This document shows positions 1,237 to 10,433 of a stretch of DNA of 62,758 nucleotides, in pieces. The translations under genes and the position numbers were made by a program. How positions within the stretch are numbered: the stretch's first letter is position 1; the number at the start of each line of letters is the position of its first letter. The notes beneath the pieces are model-generated. The model saw only the letters and a program-made list of their open reading frames with translations. It ran no database searches and had not been told where the DNA came from. Source of the DNA: Methanoculleus sp. EBM-46 (GTDB lineage: Archaea; Halobacteriota; Methanomicrobia; Methanomicrobiales; Methanoculleaceae); assembly GCA_001896715.1 (NCBI GenBank), contig MPOY01000308.1:1-62758 (forward strand), read 5' to 3'.

Positions 1237-2139
1237 ATGATAACCTTCCTCTCCGGCGGGACCGGGACCCCGAAGCTCCTCCGCGGCATGCAGGAGTTGC
1301 TGGACGAACGGGAGATCGCGGTCATCGTCAACACTGCCGAAGATATGTGGCTCTCGGGAAACCACCTCTCGCCCGACATCGATACGGTCATGTACCTCTT
1401 TGCGGATATACTCGACACCAGCCGGTGGTGGGGGATCCGCGACGATACTTACATCACCCACGACCTCCTCGCAAGGCTTGGCATCGAGGAGTTCATCGCC
1501 GTCGGGGACCGGGACCGGGCGGTCCACGTCGCCCGCGGGGAGATGCTCAGGAGAGGGATGCGGCTCACCGAGGCGACGGCGGCCCTCTGCGCAAACTTCG
1601 ACGTCTTCTCGACCGTCCTCCCGATGACCGACTCTGAGGTGACGACCTATGTCACGACACGCCGGGGCGACATGCACTTCCAGGAGTACTGGGTGAAGCA
1701 CCGGGGCGACGTAGAGATTGAAGGCGTGGTCCGCCGGCACAAAAAGCCCCCGGTCGCGACCGGCGAGGCGATCCGGGCGATCGATGCGAGCGATGCCGTC
1801 GTCATCGGGCCGAGCAATCCGGTCACGAGCATATCGCCGATACTCGAGTGCGCCGGCATCCGTGAGGCGCTCAAGAGGAAACCCGTCGTCGCGGTCAGCC
1901 CCTTCATCGGCGACGCCCCGGTCAGCGGCCCGGCGGCGGCCCTGATGCGGGCATTCGGGAAAGAATCCTCGTCCGCCGGAACCTACAGCATCTACCGGGA
2001 TCTCGTGGATATATTCATCCAGGATATCCGGGATACCGCCACGATCGGCGGGGCGCTCCGCCTCGACACCCTGATGACCAACCGGGGGAAGAGCCTGGAT
2101 CTCGCAAAGAACATACTGACGCTGATCTACGGGTGCTGA
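1237..2139 (+). CDS. cofD: 2-phospho-L-lactate transferase CofD
   Basis: CofD transfers the 2-phospholactyl group from the activated guanylylated donor to Fo, forming F420-0, in the cytoplasm. The 300-residue product has all the family hallmarks: GGTGTPKLL at 7-15, NTAED at 32-36, WWGIRDDT at 64-71, GDRDRA at 90-95, MHFQEYW at 146-152, [11 protein letters not shown] and the APVSGPA segment. Length is normal. It overlaps the end of the convergent iscU gene by 13 bases (2127-2139). A diverged paralogue lies directly upstream in the same direction, 73 bases away. Confidence 0.95.
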
Positions 2140-2537
2140 GCGGCCCCTTCACCCGTCTTCTGCTTCTCCCGGTAGTCCCGTATCGCCGCGTGGAGCGCAT
2201 CCGCCGCGAGGTTTGAGCAGTGCATCTTTCTCGGCGGCAGACCGTCGAGTTCGGTCGCCACGTCGTCGCGGGTGATCTTCAGCGCCTCGTCGAGCGTCTT
2301 TCCTTTAGCAAGGTCGGTCACCATGCTGCTCGTCGCGATCGCTGAACCGCACCCGAACGTCCGAAACCTGATGTCCTCGATGACGTCATCCCTGACCCGG
2401 ATGAAGATCTCCATGAGGTCCCCGCAGACGGGGTTGCCGACCTTGCCGTAGCCGTCGGGGTTCTCGATCACCCCGACGTTGTGCGGGTTCATGAAGTGCT
2501 CCATCACCTTCTGGCTGTATCCGATCTGGTCTGCCAA
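2127..2537 (-). CDS. iscU: IscU/NifU-type Fe-S cluster scaffold
   Basis: Scaffold on which [2Fe-2S] clusters are built before transfer to apoproteins. The 136-residue product has the three cluster cysteines in their usual contexts: Cys38 (VCGD, with the regulatory Asp40), Cys63 (FGCGSAIA) and Cys107 (HCSNLA). The C-terminal tail ([13 protein letters not shown]) is poorly conserved. It is the last gene of a minus-strand operon and starts 10 bases after the IscS-like gene. Because that partner lacks the PLP lysine, the sulfur source for this scaffold may not be the usual cysteine desulfurase reaction. Confidence 0.95.
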
Positions 2538-2547
2538 GGTCCTTCAC

Positions 2548-3702
2548 CTACAGCGGTGTAATAGCCCGCAGGCGTTTAACTGTTTCTCTTGCGGCGTTGA
2601 CGACCCGGGGCACCTCGTCGAGGCTGTTCCTGCGCCCGAGCGTCGCGACCATCGACCCGTGCGCCTCGTCGTGGGCGAGCCCGATGGCAAGGAGGACGTG
2701 CGAGGCCTCGAGCGTCCGGGAGGTGCACGCCGACCCGGTGGCGACCGCGATACCGAGGGCGTTCATCGCAAGCTGGATGCTCTCGCCCTCGATCCGGGAG
2801 AACCGGAAACTCGCGTGGTGGGGGAGCCGCTCCGCCGGGTGGCCGGTGAGGAACGCTTCCTCGATCCCGGTGATGCCGGCGATCAGCCGGTCCCGTATCG
2901 CGACAAGACGCGGGCTCTCCTCCGGCATCTCCTCCCCGGCAAGCCGGGCCGCCTCCCCCATGCAGGCGATGCCGAAGACGTTCTCGGTCCCGGGCCGGAG
3001 ACCGCGTTCCTGCCCGCCCCCGACGAGGACAGGCTGGACCCTGACCCCCGGGCGGATGTAGAGCGCACCGACGCCATCCGGGCCCCCAAGCTGATTCCCC
3101 GAGAGGGTAAGGAGGTCGATGCCGTCACGCCCGACGTTGATCGGTATCCGCCCTGCGGCGTCGGTGGCATCGACGTGGAGGAACCCGCCCCGGTCGTGAA
3201 CGATCTCCGCCACCTCCCGGATCGGCTGAACCGTCCCGATCTCGTTGTTCGCGTAGTGGACCGACGTGACGACGGTCTCCGGCGTGACCGCCGCTCCGAG
3301 GGCGTCGAGGTCGATGACGCCGAAGCGGTCGACCGGGACCAGCGTGAATGTAAACCCGCTCTTCTGGAGATCTTTTGCCGGATTCAGGACCGATATATGC
3401 TCGATGGTGCTCGTGACGACCATCTTCCCGGTCTTTTTGTTCCGGAGCGCTGCCCCCCGTATGGCGATGTTGTTCGATTCGGTCGCCCCGCTCGTGAATA
3501 TGATCGAGGCCGGGTCCCCCGCGCCGATGAGCGCTGCAACCTTCTCTCGTGCCTCAGCCAGGGCTTCCTGTGCAAAAAGTCCTTCCCGGTAGATCGTGGA
3601 GGGATTGCCGGCAAAGCTCTCCGGGAACCGCCGCGCAAACCGGGCGACACCGGGGTGGACCGGCATTGCCGCCGCGTGGTCAAGATAGATTCGTCCTTCC
3701 AT
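2548..3702 (-). CDS. IscS/NifS-like protein lacking the PLP lysine
   Basis: Full-length (384 aa) class-V aminotransferase-fold protein of the NifS/IscS type, with the normal start (YLDHAAAMPV), His102 in STIEH, Asp178 in HVDA and the mobile-loop cysteine Cys326 in ATGSACTS. The PLP pocket is rebuilt: where IscS has SGHK with the Schiff-base lysine, this has SGNQ (201-204), so Lys is Gln204 and His is Asn203; the following GPKG is GPDG; the PLP-contacting Gln after HVDAT is Asp181. A normal cysteine desulfurase reaction is therefore unlikely. Archaeoglobus fulgidus IscS is a known precedent: it lacks the lysine, has no desulfurase activity and offers its cysteine as a cluster ligand to IscU. 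The neighbouring iscU gene fits that role. Confidence 0.93.
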   Translation of the reverse strand: MEGRIYLDHAAAMPVHPGVARFARRFPESFAGNPSTIYREGLFAQEALAEAREKVAALIGAGDPASIIFTSGATESNNIAIRGAALRNKKTGKMVVTSTIEHISVLNPAKDLQKSGFTFTLVPVDRFGVIDLDALGAAVTPETVVTSVHYANNEIGTVQPIREVAEIVHDRGGFLHVDATDAAGRIPINVGRDGIDLLTLSGNQLGGPDGVGALYIRPGVRVQPVLVGGGQERGLRPGTENVFGIACMGEAARLAGEEMPEESPRLVAIRDRLIAGITGIEEAFLTGHPAERLPHHASFRFSRIEGESIQLAMNALGIAVATGSACTSRTLEASHVLLAIGLAHDEAHGSMVATLGRRNSLDEVPRVVNAARETVKRLRAITPL

Positions 3703-3715
3703 ATCCCCGTCATCC

Positions 3716-4084
3716 TTAAAACGTCATGACCGCATCGGCGTCGACCGCAAGGTCGTTCAAGGTGAGCGCACCGACGACTTTTCCTTCCGGGATGAAGTCG
3801 CCCCGCGGGATGCCGAGGAGCTGGGTGCTCTGCTCGCATATGTAGATCGTTGCCCCCGCGGCGATCGCCTGGTCGCGCATCTCCGAGAGCTTCGGGAAGT
3901 TCCCGACCTGGATCGCCTCCGCCGCGCCTTTCTTCACGACCGTCACCCCCCGGATCATGAAGTAGATGTCGGCATCCATATCCGTCGCGCGTGCCGTCAT
4001 CGCGAGGACGAACGGCGCATACAACCGTTCCGGCATGTCGGTGCCGCTCGTCTGGATGTAGAGTATCCGTGCCATACCATTCAC
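3716..4084 (-). CDS. DsrE/DsrF-family sulfur-relay protein
   Basis: A 122-residue DsrE-fold protein. Members act as small persulfide carriers or partners of TusA. Visible features are the beta-strand start (ARILYIQTSGTD), the DADIYFMIRGVTVVKKG segment, and Cys83 in ATIYICEQS, the usual place of the reactive cysteine in this family. The start at 4084 is supported by AAAGGAG a few bases upstream; Met4 is an alternative. It lies in the sulfur operon, 13 bases before the IscS-like gene and 147 bases after the TusA-like gene. Role inferred: passing sulfane sulfur between TusA and the IscU/IscS-like pair. Confidence 0.85.
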   Translation of the reverse strand: MNGMARILYIQTSGTDMPERLYAPFVLAMTARATDMDADIYFMIRGVTVVKKGAAEAIQVGNFPKLSEMRDQAIAAGATIYICEQSTQLLGIPRGDFIPEGKVVGALTLNDLAVDADAVMTF

Positions 4085-4231
4085 GCTCCTTTCCGGATGG
4101 AAAACCGGCTATCGAGATCGATTCCCGGGGCTCCTCCTCTTTGGGGCCGATCTACCCCCTCACCGAGCAGGACGGCCGGCGCCTGGCAGCAGGCACCCCG
4201 GGCATCCGCGTAACTTTCGGCATCCATCGGA

Positions 4232-4480
4232 TCACGTCGCCTCTGCCGCTGCCGCCGCCCCCTTGCGCAAGATAAGGGTCGTCACGCCCGATGTGACGTG
4301 CTCCTCCTCGATCGTGTGCCGATTCTCACCTGCCCAGGACCTGACCATCTCGACGAGGTCCGGTTTATCGGTCATTACCTGCAGGATCTGCCCCTCGCCG
4401 AGCATCTTCATCTCCTCTTCGATCGACAGCATGGGCGACTGGCATATGCCGATGCAACTGACAACCTTATCCGCGTACAC
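4232..4480 (-). CDS. TusA-like protein with altered CPxP motif
   Basis: An 82-residue TusA-fold protein directly after a canonical TusA (11-base gap). In TusA the reactive cysteine sits in CPxP; here the equivalent is Cys13 in CIGICQSP, so the cysteine is kept but the following proline is lost. Two acidic/hydrophobic helices and the end strand (VTTLILRKG) follow the TusA pattern. It may be a diverged sulfur carrier or a docking partner for its neighbour. The alanine-rich end (GAAAAAEAT) is probably disordered. A 147-base gap separates it from the DsrE gene; I see no other gene there. Confidence 0.8.
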   Translation of the reverse strand: MYADKVVSCIGICQSPMLSIEEEMKMLGEGQILQVMTDKPDLVEMVRSWAGENRHTIEEEHVTSGVTTLILRKGAAAAAEAT

Positions 4481-4491
4481 TCAACACCACC

Positions 4492-4734
4492 TCACTTCAT
4501 CCTCCGGATGGAGAACCGTATGACTTCGCCATCCTTCTCGAACTTCACGATCTCGTGCCCCACCCGGTTTGCCCAGCGCCGGATATCCTCCTGTGCTGCC
4601 GGATCGTCCGCCTCGACCAGGAGCACTTCGCCGATGCCGACCTTCTCGATCGCATCTTTCGTCATTGCGATCGGCATGGGACAGTAGAGCCCAAGACAAT
4701 CGACGACCGCAGAGGGTTTGACATCCTGTTGCAT
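4492..4734 (-). CDS. tusA: TusA-family sulfur carrier
   Basis: A sulfurtransferase of 80 residues with the signature DCLGLYCPMP, catalytic Cys18 and the CPxP helix cap, and the usual LLVEADDPAAQEDI and C-terminal IRRMK segments. TusA proteins accept persulfide on this cysteine and hand it on for thiolation or cluster assembly. The start at 4734 was chosen because family similarity begins there and GGAG precedes it; the frame is open to 4806 but that extension is cysteine- and arginine-rich junk. First gene of the five-gene sulfur operon. Confidence 0.9.
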   Translation of the reverse strand: MQQDVKPSAVVDCLGLYCPMPIAMTKDAIEKVGIGEVLLVEADDPAAQEDIRRWANRVGHEIVKFEKDGEVIRFSIRRMK

Positions 4735-4811
4735 CTCTCCATCCCCCGTTGTGGAACCCGGGTGCCGCGACACTCTCCCGGCGCATGCCCGGTTGCAGCG
4801 GATCATGCACT

Positions 4812-8235: not shown

Positions 8236-8819
8236 ACCACCCTGCTCGTCGTCGAGAGTTCAAGGCCACGGGCGATGATGTGATAGGGGATCGCCCGTTG
8301 CGGCACGTTCGAGCCTCTGAGCTTCTCGATGGCGAGCGTCCTCTCGATCTCGTTGCCGTGGATCTGCTGCCTGAGGGTGATGAAGACGTCCGCTGCACGC
8401 ATCACCCGTGCCTCCTCGAAGGGGCCGTGGAGGCCGGCGTAGAGGAGGTAAACGATGGTCGCTCCCTCATCGACGGCCGCCTGAACATCTTCGCGGATAA
8501 ACCGGATGGCTGCATCGATGCCCCGGTCGGCGATCAGCGTGGAGAGGGAGTCGATGACGATCCGTTCTCCCTGCACGGCTCCGACCAGCGCCGTAATATC
8601 CATGCCCCGTGCGTCGGTCATGCCTTCGAGCGGCACGGCATCGAGCATCAGGTACGCACCCGCCGCGTTCCCCGTCCGCCAGAACTGCTGTGCCAGGAGC
8701 TCAAGGCCGCTTAAAGGGGATCCGGATACGATGATATGGGCTTCCGGGGGGAATCCTCCATCGAGCACAAGGTCCAGGCCCGCGATACCTGTCGAACGTC
8801 TGCTGCTGGTCTTGACCAC
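8232..8819 (-). CDS. KaiC/RecA-fold protein with degenerate Walker A
   Basis: A 195-residue RecA-superfamily domain of the archaeal KaiC-like type: N-terminal TGIAGLDLVLDGGFP (10-24) and a Walker B strand ERIVIDS (86-91). The P-loop is broken: where active members have GSPGSGKS/T this has GSPLSGLE (33-40), losing the lysine and the Ser/Thr that bind ATP phosphate and magnesium. It is therefore probably a non-hydrolysing, regulatory or structural member. The GTG start at 8819 is supported by GAGGTG 5 bases upstream, and a TATA-like tract (GTATAGATAC) lies near 8855. It is convergent with the methionine synthase gene. Confidence 0.85.
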   Translation of the reverse strand: MVKTSSRRSTGIAGLDLVLDGGFPPEAHIIVSGSPLSGLELLAQQFWRTGNAAGAYLMLDAVPLEGMTDARGMDITALVGAVQGERIVIDSLSTLIADRGIDAAIRFIREDVQAAVDEGATIVYLLYAGLHGPFEEARVMRAADVFITLRQQIHGNEIERTLAIEKLRGSNVPQRAIPYHIIARGLELSTTSRVV

Positions 8820-8882
8820 ATCTGCACCTCGGGTGTACGTCAGGAGTATCTATACACCGCTTTTCCTTCTTAATAGTAACCG

Positions 8883-10433
8883 TCAGGCGCAGCCGATGCC
8901 GCCGGCACCGCAGTACTCCTCCCTGAGGCGCTTCCGGAGGAGCTTCCACCCGTTCACCCGGGGGATATCGGCGGCGACGATGACCCGGCGGGGGACTTTG
9001 TAGCCGGCGAGGCGCTCGCGGGCAAAGGCGATGATATCGTCGGGGGTGATGCCGCCCTCCGCAGGGACCACCACGGCTACCGGAACCTCGCCCCGGCGCT
9101 CGTCGGGGCACCCGAAGACCGCCGCATCACGGATGCCCGGGTGCTGGATAAGGGCATCCTCGACCTCGGTCGGGTAGACCTTCCAGCCCGACATGACGAT
9201 CATGTCCTTCTTTCTGTCGGTGATGGCGAGCATCCCGTCCGCGTCGAGGTGGCCGATATCGCCGGTCAGGAACCAGCCGTCGGGGAGGAAGGCGGCACGG
9301 GTCTCCTCCGGCATCTGCCAGTAGCCGAGCGCCACCCCCGGCCCCCGGAGGGCGATCTCCCCGTCCTCGCCGGGACCGAGCTCTTGAGCGGGATCGTCTG
9401 CATCGACGATCTTCACCTCCGAGAACCCGACCGGGGTGCCGACGCTCCGGAACTCGTCGGCGGTCGCGTAGTGCTCGGGACGGATGGCGGTCCCGGTCCC
9501 GACGACGACCGTCTCGGAAAGGCCGTAGGCGTTGGCGACCGGGATCCTGAACCGTTCGTGGAAAGGTTTCCAGACGCCGGGCATCAGGGGGCCGCCGCCG
9601 CTGATCATCACCCGGACGGTGGCGAGCGCCGCCTCGGTCCCGGGCGGGGTCTGGAGGAGGGAGTGGATCACCGGCGGCATGCCGGCGACGATCGTGGCCC
9701 GGTATTCACGGGCGAGGTCGATGTAGCGGGAAAGATCGAACCGCTCCATGACGACGTAGGTCCCGCCTGCCCGGAGGGTGGATATGCCCCAGCTGATCCC
9801 GACGTGGCCCATCGGGTAGATACCGAGGTAGATGTCGTCCGCGGTAATTCCGAGGAGATCCCGCTCGGCATCCATCGCCGCGATCCAGTTGCCGTGGGTG
9901 AGCATGGCGCCTTTGGGTCTCCCGGTGGTGCCGGACGTGTACTGGATCTGGCAGAGGTCGTCGAACCGGCAGTGGACGGCGCGGCGGCAGGGCTCTGCAC
10001 GGAGGAGGTCGGTCCACGGTGTCGTGCCGGCGATGTTGCCGCTGACGGCGACGACGTGCCGGAGCGTCGGCGCCCGGTCGCGTATACGCCCGACGAGAGC
10101 CGCACCCTCCGCGTCGGTGATGACGGCTGCGGCCCCGGCGTCGCGGACGGCGTAGAGGACCTCGCTCTCGCGGTAGACCCGGTTCGTCGGGACCGCGACG
10201 GCGCCGATCCGCCAGAGGGCGAGGTAACTGATGAGGTATTCCACCGAACTTTCCAGGTAGATGCAGACGCGCTCCCCGCGCTCGACCCCGAGGGCGAGGA
10301 GGCCGCCCGCGGCCCGGGCGACCGTATCGAGGAGGTCGGCGCGGGTGTAGGACTCTCCGGTCGAGGGGATGATGAGAGCGGTCTTTGCGGGGTTAACGGC
10401 GTTGGCATCGAGAAACGTGGTGCAGTTCGGCAT
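8883..10433 (-). CDS. AMP-forming acyl-CoA synthetase
   Basis: ANL-superfamily enzyme of 516 residues that adenylates a carboxylic acid and transfers it to CoA. It has the phosphate loop YTSGTTGRPKG (165-175), YGLSETVVVG, the hinge region TGDIGHLDADG / RKKDMIVMSGWKVYP and a C-terminal lid with the catalytic lysine in PRVNGWKLLRKRLR, where the usual TGK is GWK. It resembles medium- or long-chain acyl-CoA ligases rather than acetyl-CoA synthetase; the substrate cannot be told from sequence. The start at 10433 is the first Met matching the family. The upstream A/T-rich tract (ACATATACATC, near 10468, minus strand) is a likely TATA box. Confidence 0.9.
   Translation of the reverse strand: MPNCTTFLDANAVNPAKTALIIPSTGESYTRADLLDTVARAAGGLLALGVERGERVCIYLESSVEYLISYLALWRIGAVAVPTNRVYRESEVLYAVRDAGAAAVITDAEGAALVGRIRDRAPTLRHVVAVSGNIAGTTPWTDLLRAEPCRRAVHCRFDDLCQIQYTSGTTGRPKGAMLTHGNWIAAMDAERDLLGITADDIYLGIYPMGHVGISWGISTLRAGGTYVVMERFDLSRYIDLAREYRATIVAGMPPVIHSLLQTPPGTEAALATVRVMISGGGPLMPGVWKPFHERFRIPVANAYGLSETVVVGTGTAIRPEHYATADEFRSVGTPVGFSEVKIVDADDPAQELGPGEDGEIALRGPGVALGYWQMPEETRAAFLPDGWFLTGDIGHLDADGMLAITDRKKDMIVMSGWKVYPTEVEDALIQHPGIRDAAVFGCPDERRGEVPVAVVVPAEGGITPDDIIAFARERLAGYKVPRRVIVAADIPRVNGWKLLRKRLREEYCGAGGIGCA

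Follow-up and report, generated by a model that had tools for sequence, protein, structure and literature searches.

The closest described relatives of the locus analysed here are IscS-IscU pairs in which the desulfurase partner has been altered. Archaeoglobus fulgidus IscS is without desulfurase activity and supplies a cysteine ligand to the cluster in IscU, and Methanosarcina acetivorans IscS1 lacks the lysine to which PLP is bound in active enzymes (PMC7585200). Other assembly systems include MIS, which is described as an IscS/IscU pair (PMC12442378) and as containing a cysteine desulfurase (PMC12192291). Sulfur transfer between carrier proteins has been described separately: in E. coli, TusA and IscU bind around the same Cys loop of IscS, with TusA docking beside the loop (structures 3lvj and 3lvk; PMC2854127), and in Metallosphaera cuprina the cysteines of DsrE and TusA pass sulfur between proteins (PMC4175335). 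Which factors channel sulfide into the Methanococcus Fe-S machinery is not known (PMC7585200), and for anaerobic archaea that build Fe-S clusters without cysteine the protein delivering the sulfur has yet to be established.

The window, by which the whole analysed stretch of 62,758 nucleotides from Methanoculleus sp. EBM-46 is meant, contains an IscS homologue without the PLP lysine, encoded on the same strand as IscU (downstream) and DsrE and two TusA proteins (upstream). This arrangement, read from the sequence in the first-pass annotation, was confirmed by Pfam:

2127-2537, minus strand: iscU scaffold gene with a TTG start; Pfam match.
2548-3702, minus strand: lysine-less iscS, IscS fold, 384 aa; SGNQ at 201-204, D181, V352.
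3716-4084, minus strand: dsrE (PF02635), carrier Cys83 when numbered from the GTG start; translation probably begins at the ATG at 4075, as it does in orthologues.
About 4081-4227, minus strand: shortened remnant of a third TusA, CQAP kept.
4232-4480, minus strand: tusA2, TusA-like (PF01206, 40 bits), CQSP instead of CPxP.
4492-4806, minus strand: tusA1 (PF01206, 81.5 bits), CPMP motif with Cys42, a TusA by both domain and conserved CPxP cysteine; translation probably begins at the ATG at 4734.

The IscU is intact, as first described, with ligand residues C38, D40, C63 and C107 all present. The third TusA, lying between tusA2 and dsrE, had been overlooked; it is full-length in most relatives, and the genus ancestor therefore probably had three TusA in tandem. 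On the plus strand, the window also encodes two tandem CofD (2-phospho-L-lactate transferase) paralogues at 117-1163 and 1237-2139, a pair retained in every genus member examined, although the first falls under its NCBIfam cut-off (226.8 vs 257.45).

Translation of the iscS homologue (minus strand) bears out the residues listed in the first-pass annotation, namely SGNQ in place of SGHK, Asp181 in place of Gln and a retained Cys326, and H102 and D178 are kept as well. The protein has the class V aminotransferase fold (PF00266, Aminotran_5, 218 bits) and scores below the cut-offs of the NCBIfam NifS/IscS equivalogs (405.8 vs 530.75, 344.1 vs 643.2 and 347.7 vs 548). Its best PDB relatives by both sequence and fold are A. 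fulgidus IscS structures (4eb5, 4hvk and 4r5f), in line with the parallel originally drawn to that protein. The fold match (4hvk, TM 0.85, Foldseek) was obtained with a moderate-confidence AlphaFold model (mean pLDDT 71.5, weak C-terminus) that was used for fold matching only.

Comparison of 87 non-redundant members of the lysine-less clade with 99 lysine-bearing proteins revealed how far the active site has been dismantled. The Schiff-base lysine (position 204; Gln204 in the window) occurs in 0/87 clade members vs 99/99 lysine-bearing proteins, and the same counts apply to Arg at the position aligned with E. coli Arg354, which we take to be the residue binding the carboxylate of the substrate cysteine; its replacement by Val352 in the window had escaped the first reading. 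The phosphate His (203) and the PLP Gln (181) have disappeared from every clade member, being replaced in 86/87 by Asn and by Ala or Asp, respectively, and Asp178 is Asn in 19 of the 87. By contrast with these losses, mobile-loop Cys326 is present in 87/87, and all 87 retain His102 and Arg236. Every PLP- or cysteine-binding residue tested is lost except His102 and, in part of the clade, Asp178. The change from GPKG to GPDG, initially counted among the losses, is present at 207-210 but was discarded as an important one, since the residue at this position varies among other clade members (R, Q or K) and is not diagnostic. Judged by these residues, the cysteine-handling chemistry is gone from the clade and the persulfide-carrying cysteine has been retained, and the window protein is predicted to be PLP-free.

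Among 232 Methanomicrobiales genomes, orthologues were found in 36, at 58-100% identity (also given as 58-90%) and with a clear gap to lysine-bearing IscS (at most 52% identity). The first-pass annotation had asked whether the losses are fixed across the order: all 36 carriers lack the lysine, reading SGNQ, SSNQ, SGNP, SGND, SSND, SSNE or SSSD, but carriers make up only 36/232 genomes. The gene is under purifying selection, with a median dN/dS of about 0.20, compared with 0.15 for dsrE and 0.11 for iscU. The Methanoculleus genome itself holds a separate lysine-bearing IscS (SAHK; L001/L050).

In an IQ-TREE phylogeny of 84 sequences, IscS proteins of the SSND/SGNQ type form a single clade (bootstrap 100, SH-aLRT 98) that includes both A. 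fulgidus copies. Its members come from Methanomicrobiales, Methanocellales, Archaeoglobaceae and several other Halobacteriota families, and further sequences derive from bins labelled Bathyarchaeota, Thorarchaeota, Thaumarchaeota, Thermoplasmatota, Deltaproteobacteria, WOR-3 and Actinobacteria, which may be contaminated. The lysine-less form is old and conserved rather than an isolated defect. Methanosarcinaceae IscS1 and two bacterial proteins fall outside this main clade. Lysine loss amounts to four changes on the tree, and the Methanosarcinaceae loss is possibly separate, but AU tests gave p 0.26 for one origin and p 0.68 for Methanosarcinaceae together with the main clade. Repeated losses converging on TusA/DsrE are not claimed here, because a single origin is not rejected by the AU test and the independent-pairs test had too few pairs. 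When further losses of the L147 type were sought in Omnitrophota, lysine-bearing relatives were found wherever the motif was readable. Two other variants were observed: a Hydrothermarchaeota contig (L142, 4580-5767) encodes an IscS with Arg for the lysine (SAHR), then TusA, then a lysine-bearing IscS, and a Saganbacteria IscS outside the main clade (L139, 2496-4866) has SANL for SxHK, and after it come a DsrE2-like protein and a TusA that carries CPMP.

The genomic neighbourhood distinguishes the two kinds of IscS. Within 2 kb, at loci with enough flank (73 lysine-less, two of them outside the main clade, and 74 lysine-bearing) that are mutually related and whose counts are thus not independent, lysine-less genes were accompanied by TusA at 67/73, DsrE at 61/73, IscU at 70/73 and all three at 55/73, vs 2/74, 1/74, 58/74 and 1/74 for lysine-bearing genes. 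The sole lysine-bearing locus with all three partners adjoins a lysine-less gene, and the adjacent dsrE is missing at some Archaeoglobaceae loci. The cysteines expected of carriers and scaffold are conserved: C42 of TusA in 76/76, C83 of DsrE in 70/70 rows with a residue there (one row gapped), and C38, D40, C63 and C107 of IscU in 74-75 of 76.

Patterns of gene loss point in the same direction. Close DsrE orthologues (at least 60% identity) occur in 38/232 genomes, comprising all 36 with the lysine-less iscS, to which dsrE is adjacent, and two others (G079 and G053) in which the site is intact apart from deletion of iscS, leaving a short C-terminal remnant in both; in G053 tusA1 is broken too. 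Six further genus genomes show this site, flanked by the cofD pair on one side and an arginine decarboxylase gene on the other; there dsrE is fragmentary or missing and tusA1 is truncated or missing, with iscU (88-94% identity) and tusA2 retained. Since dsrE and tusA1 decay with the deletion of iscS while iscU and tusA2 stay, the first three genes behave as one unit, and iscU and tusA2 have a use beyond it. In all, eight same-genus genomes have lost the lysine-less iscS and kept iscU, so IscU can do without it where a lysine-bearing IscS exists, which is the main weakness of a relay reading. No IscU other than that of the window was found in the Methanoculleus draft genome (85.5% complete), where the lysine-bearing iscS (L050) has no iscU beside it; for these reasons, the lysine-bearing IscS may serve IscU in trans.

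Taken together, it seems rather probable that the window protein is a PLP-free, catalytically dead desulfurase homologue that now works as a sulfur acceptor and donor, and as a partner of the scaffold, in an IscSU variant that is independent of cysteine and fed by TusA1 and DsrE. A donor outside the operon would supply the sulfane sulfur that TusA1 (CPxP Cys42) and DsrE (Cys83) bring to Cys326, which, on its mobile loop, would hand the sulfur to IscU and perhaps, by analogy with A. fulgidus, also serve transiently as fourth ligand while the cluster forms; IscU would bind iron and use its three cysteines and Asp to build the cluster. The persulfide relay suggested in the first-pass annotation as an alternative to cysteine thus has strong circumstantial support in the operon, the carrier cysteines, the co-occurrence and the co-decay, whereas we infer its sulfur source and direction of flow, as well as its existence, which donor feeds it and the part played by Cys326 as a ligand.

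A different role, in which the IscS homologue is a structural partner only, steadying IscU and lending Cys326 as a cluster ligand, with free sulfide as the sulfur and TusA/DsrE serving another target such as tRNA thiolation, is considered unlikely, albeit worth weighing. It agrees with the A. fulgidus complex as described in PMC7585200 and with the ability of sulfide to feed SMS clusters in vivo (PMC12192291), and a SufB/D homologue is present both in the Methanoculleus genome and in A. fulgidus. However, it would explain neither why tusA and dsrE track the lysine-less iscS across families and phyla nor why dsrE and tusA1 decay once it is lost, and persulfide carriers and a fused disulfide reductase would be needless for free sulfide.

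Such a reductase occurs in several lineages. At seven lysine-less loci (L209, L216, L222, L224, L225, L231 and L234; families f30 and f36), IscU forms a fusion with a full pyridine-nucleotide disulfide oxidoreductase, with the PF07992 domain scanned in L209 and L222; shorter IscU-reductase fusions occur at L124, L132, L141 and L233, and a free disulfide reductase gene lies near the operon in family f16. A disulfide reductase domain search of the neighbourhoods gave matches only at lysine-less loci and none at lysine-bearing ones. A flavin disulfide reductase partner would be required if sulfane sulfur is to be reduced to sulfide on the scaffold, a need that the fusion fits.

Even less probable is a flow in the opposite sense, with sulfur or sulfide entering at the IscS homologue and IscU and leaving via Cys326, from which DsrE and TusA would pass it on to thiolate tRNA or to make cofactors. 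Operon membership alone leaves the direction of flow unfixed; in E. coli sulfur goes from IscS to TusA, a direction accompanied by structures of the IscS-TusA complex, and the positions of the E. coli IscS TusA-binding residues (W45, E49 and D52) were not informative in the clade comparison. Nevertheless, owing to its residue losses the IscS homologue cannot itself make the persulfide, and its most constant neighbour is iscU, a cluster scaffold (70/73 loci).

The two objections foreseen in the first-pass annotation fare worst. That a displaced lysine holds PLP and preserves desulfurase activity is most improbable: K110 and K114 are near-invariant in the clade, but their place is the helix that follows His102, many lysine-bearing IscS proteins share K114, and A. 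fulgidus IscS has both despite being inactive. Moreover, the clade has lost the phosphate His, the PLP Gln and the substrate Arg. A decaying pseudogene or assembly error, to which the loss of the gene in many genus members might point, is scarcely credible and, for the carriers, refuted by 36 intact lysine-less orthologues of 58-90% identity with a dN/dS of 0.20, which excludes a sequencing error at the SGNQ codons.

On a broader scale, TusA-DsrE-IscS-IscU, joined in some lineages by the IscU-flavin disulfide reductase fusion, may constitute a distinct cysteine-independent Fe-S assembly system, found throughout Halobacteriota and in certain further bins of archaea and bacteria. Its PLP-free IscS would receive sulfane sulfur from dedicated carriers, opposite to the E. 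coli IscS-TusA direction, and in Archaeoglobaceae the system would replace the cysteine desulfurase for IscU; this proposal is about as likely as not. Because the dead desulfurase keeps its sulfur-handling cysteine and is almost always encoded beside sulfur carriers and a scaffold, the data suggest that such microbes feed Fe-S assembly from a protein sulfur relay and not directly from cysteine. No description of an operon-wide relay of this kind was found in the freely accessible literature. As far as checked, the novel findings are that the losses extend through the clade and include the substrate Arg, that the operon is conserved, that its genes decay together and that IscU is fused to a reductase, while the inactive A. 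fulgidus IscS with its Cys ligand and the lysine-less M. acetivorans IscS1 were already known (PMC7585200). An operon pairing a dead desulfurase with two sulfur carriers supplies candidate factors for sulfur delivery in the form of directly testable proteins, and an isolated structural result from A. fulgidus gains genomic context over many lineages. Automatic 'cysteine desulfurase' labels are wrong for the entire lysine-less clade.

With respect to known systems, canonical IscS-IscU and MIS (MisS-MisU) share the pairing of an IscS fold with an IscU scaffold; relative to MIS as described in PMC12192291, the desulfurase residues are absent here and TusA and DsrE are added. SMS (SmsCB) resembles the present locus in assembling clusters without a cysteine desulfurase, with sulfide as the source (PMC12192291), but it has a SufBC-type scaffold and no IscS fold, and no TusA/DsrE are described for it. 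The M. cuprina relay likewise involves an archaeal DsrE and TusA pair, although its DsrE is of the DsrE3A type and it serves dissimilatory sulfur oxidation with an Hdr-like complex rather than cluster assembly.

M. acetivorans IscS1/IscU1 (MA0808/MA0807) is closer, having lost the lysine and kept the loop Cys, and related Methanosarcinaceae IscS1 loci have TusA (CPVP) and DsrE2 upstream and IscU downstream; the 'genes of unknown function' around M. acetivorans iscSU1 (PMC7585200) may be this TusA/DsrE2 set. Methanosarcinaceae IscS1 differs in the replacement of the lysine by Thr and the stacking His by Asp, with the phosphate His and substrate Arg kept, and its loci differ in a DsrE2-type carrier (PF13686) and an IscU fused to PF01883, the C-terminal FeS_assembly_P domain seen in L293 at 8299-8934.

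The nearest system is A. fulgidus IscS-IscU (4eb5, 4eb7 and 4hvk; D199K mutant 4r5f), which belongs to the same clade, with the lysine replaced, His changed to Asn, the substrate Arg lost, the loop Cys kept and iscU adjacent. A genome taken as A. fulgidus from its IscS sequence match (G330) has two IscS, both SSND and each paired with iscU; no lysine-bearing IscS appeared among its listed class V matches, the others scoring at most 88 bits, far under IscS, and the other class V proteins examined in this family were SepCysS-like and of the serine-pyruvate type. One copy resides in a tusA-dsrE-iscS-iscU operon (L297) and the other in dsrE-iscS-iscU (L298, 6223-7562), which follows ORFs resembling, by eye, a ferrous iron transporter. 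The window protein is 44-46% identical to A. fulgidus IscS in structural alignment, and its genus departs from A. fulgidus in reading NQ instead of ND (SGNQ vs SSND), in the expansion of TusA into a tandem array and in encoding a lysine-bearing IscS elsewhere in the genome.
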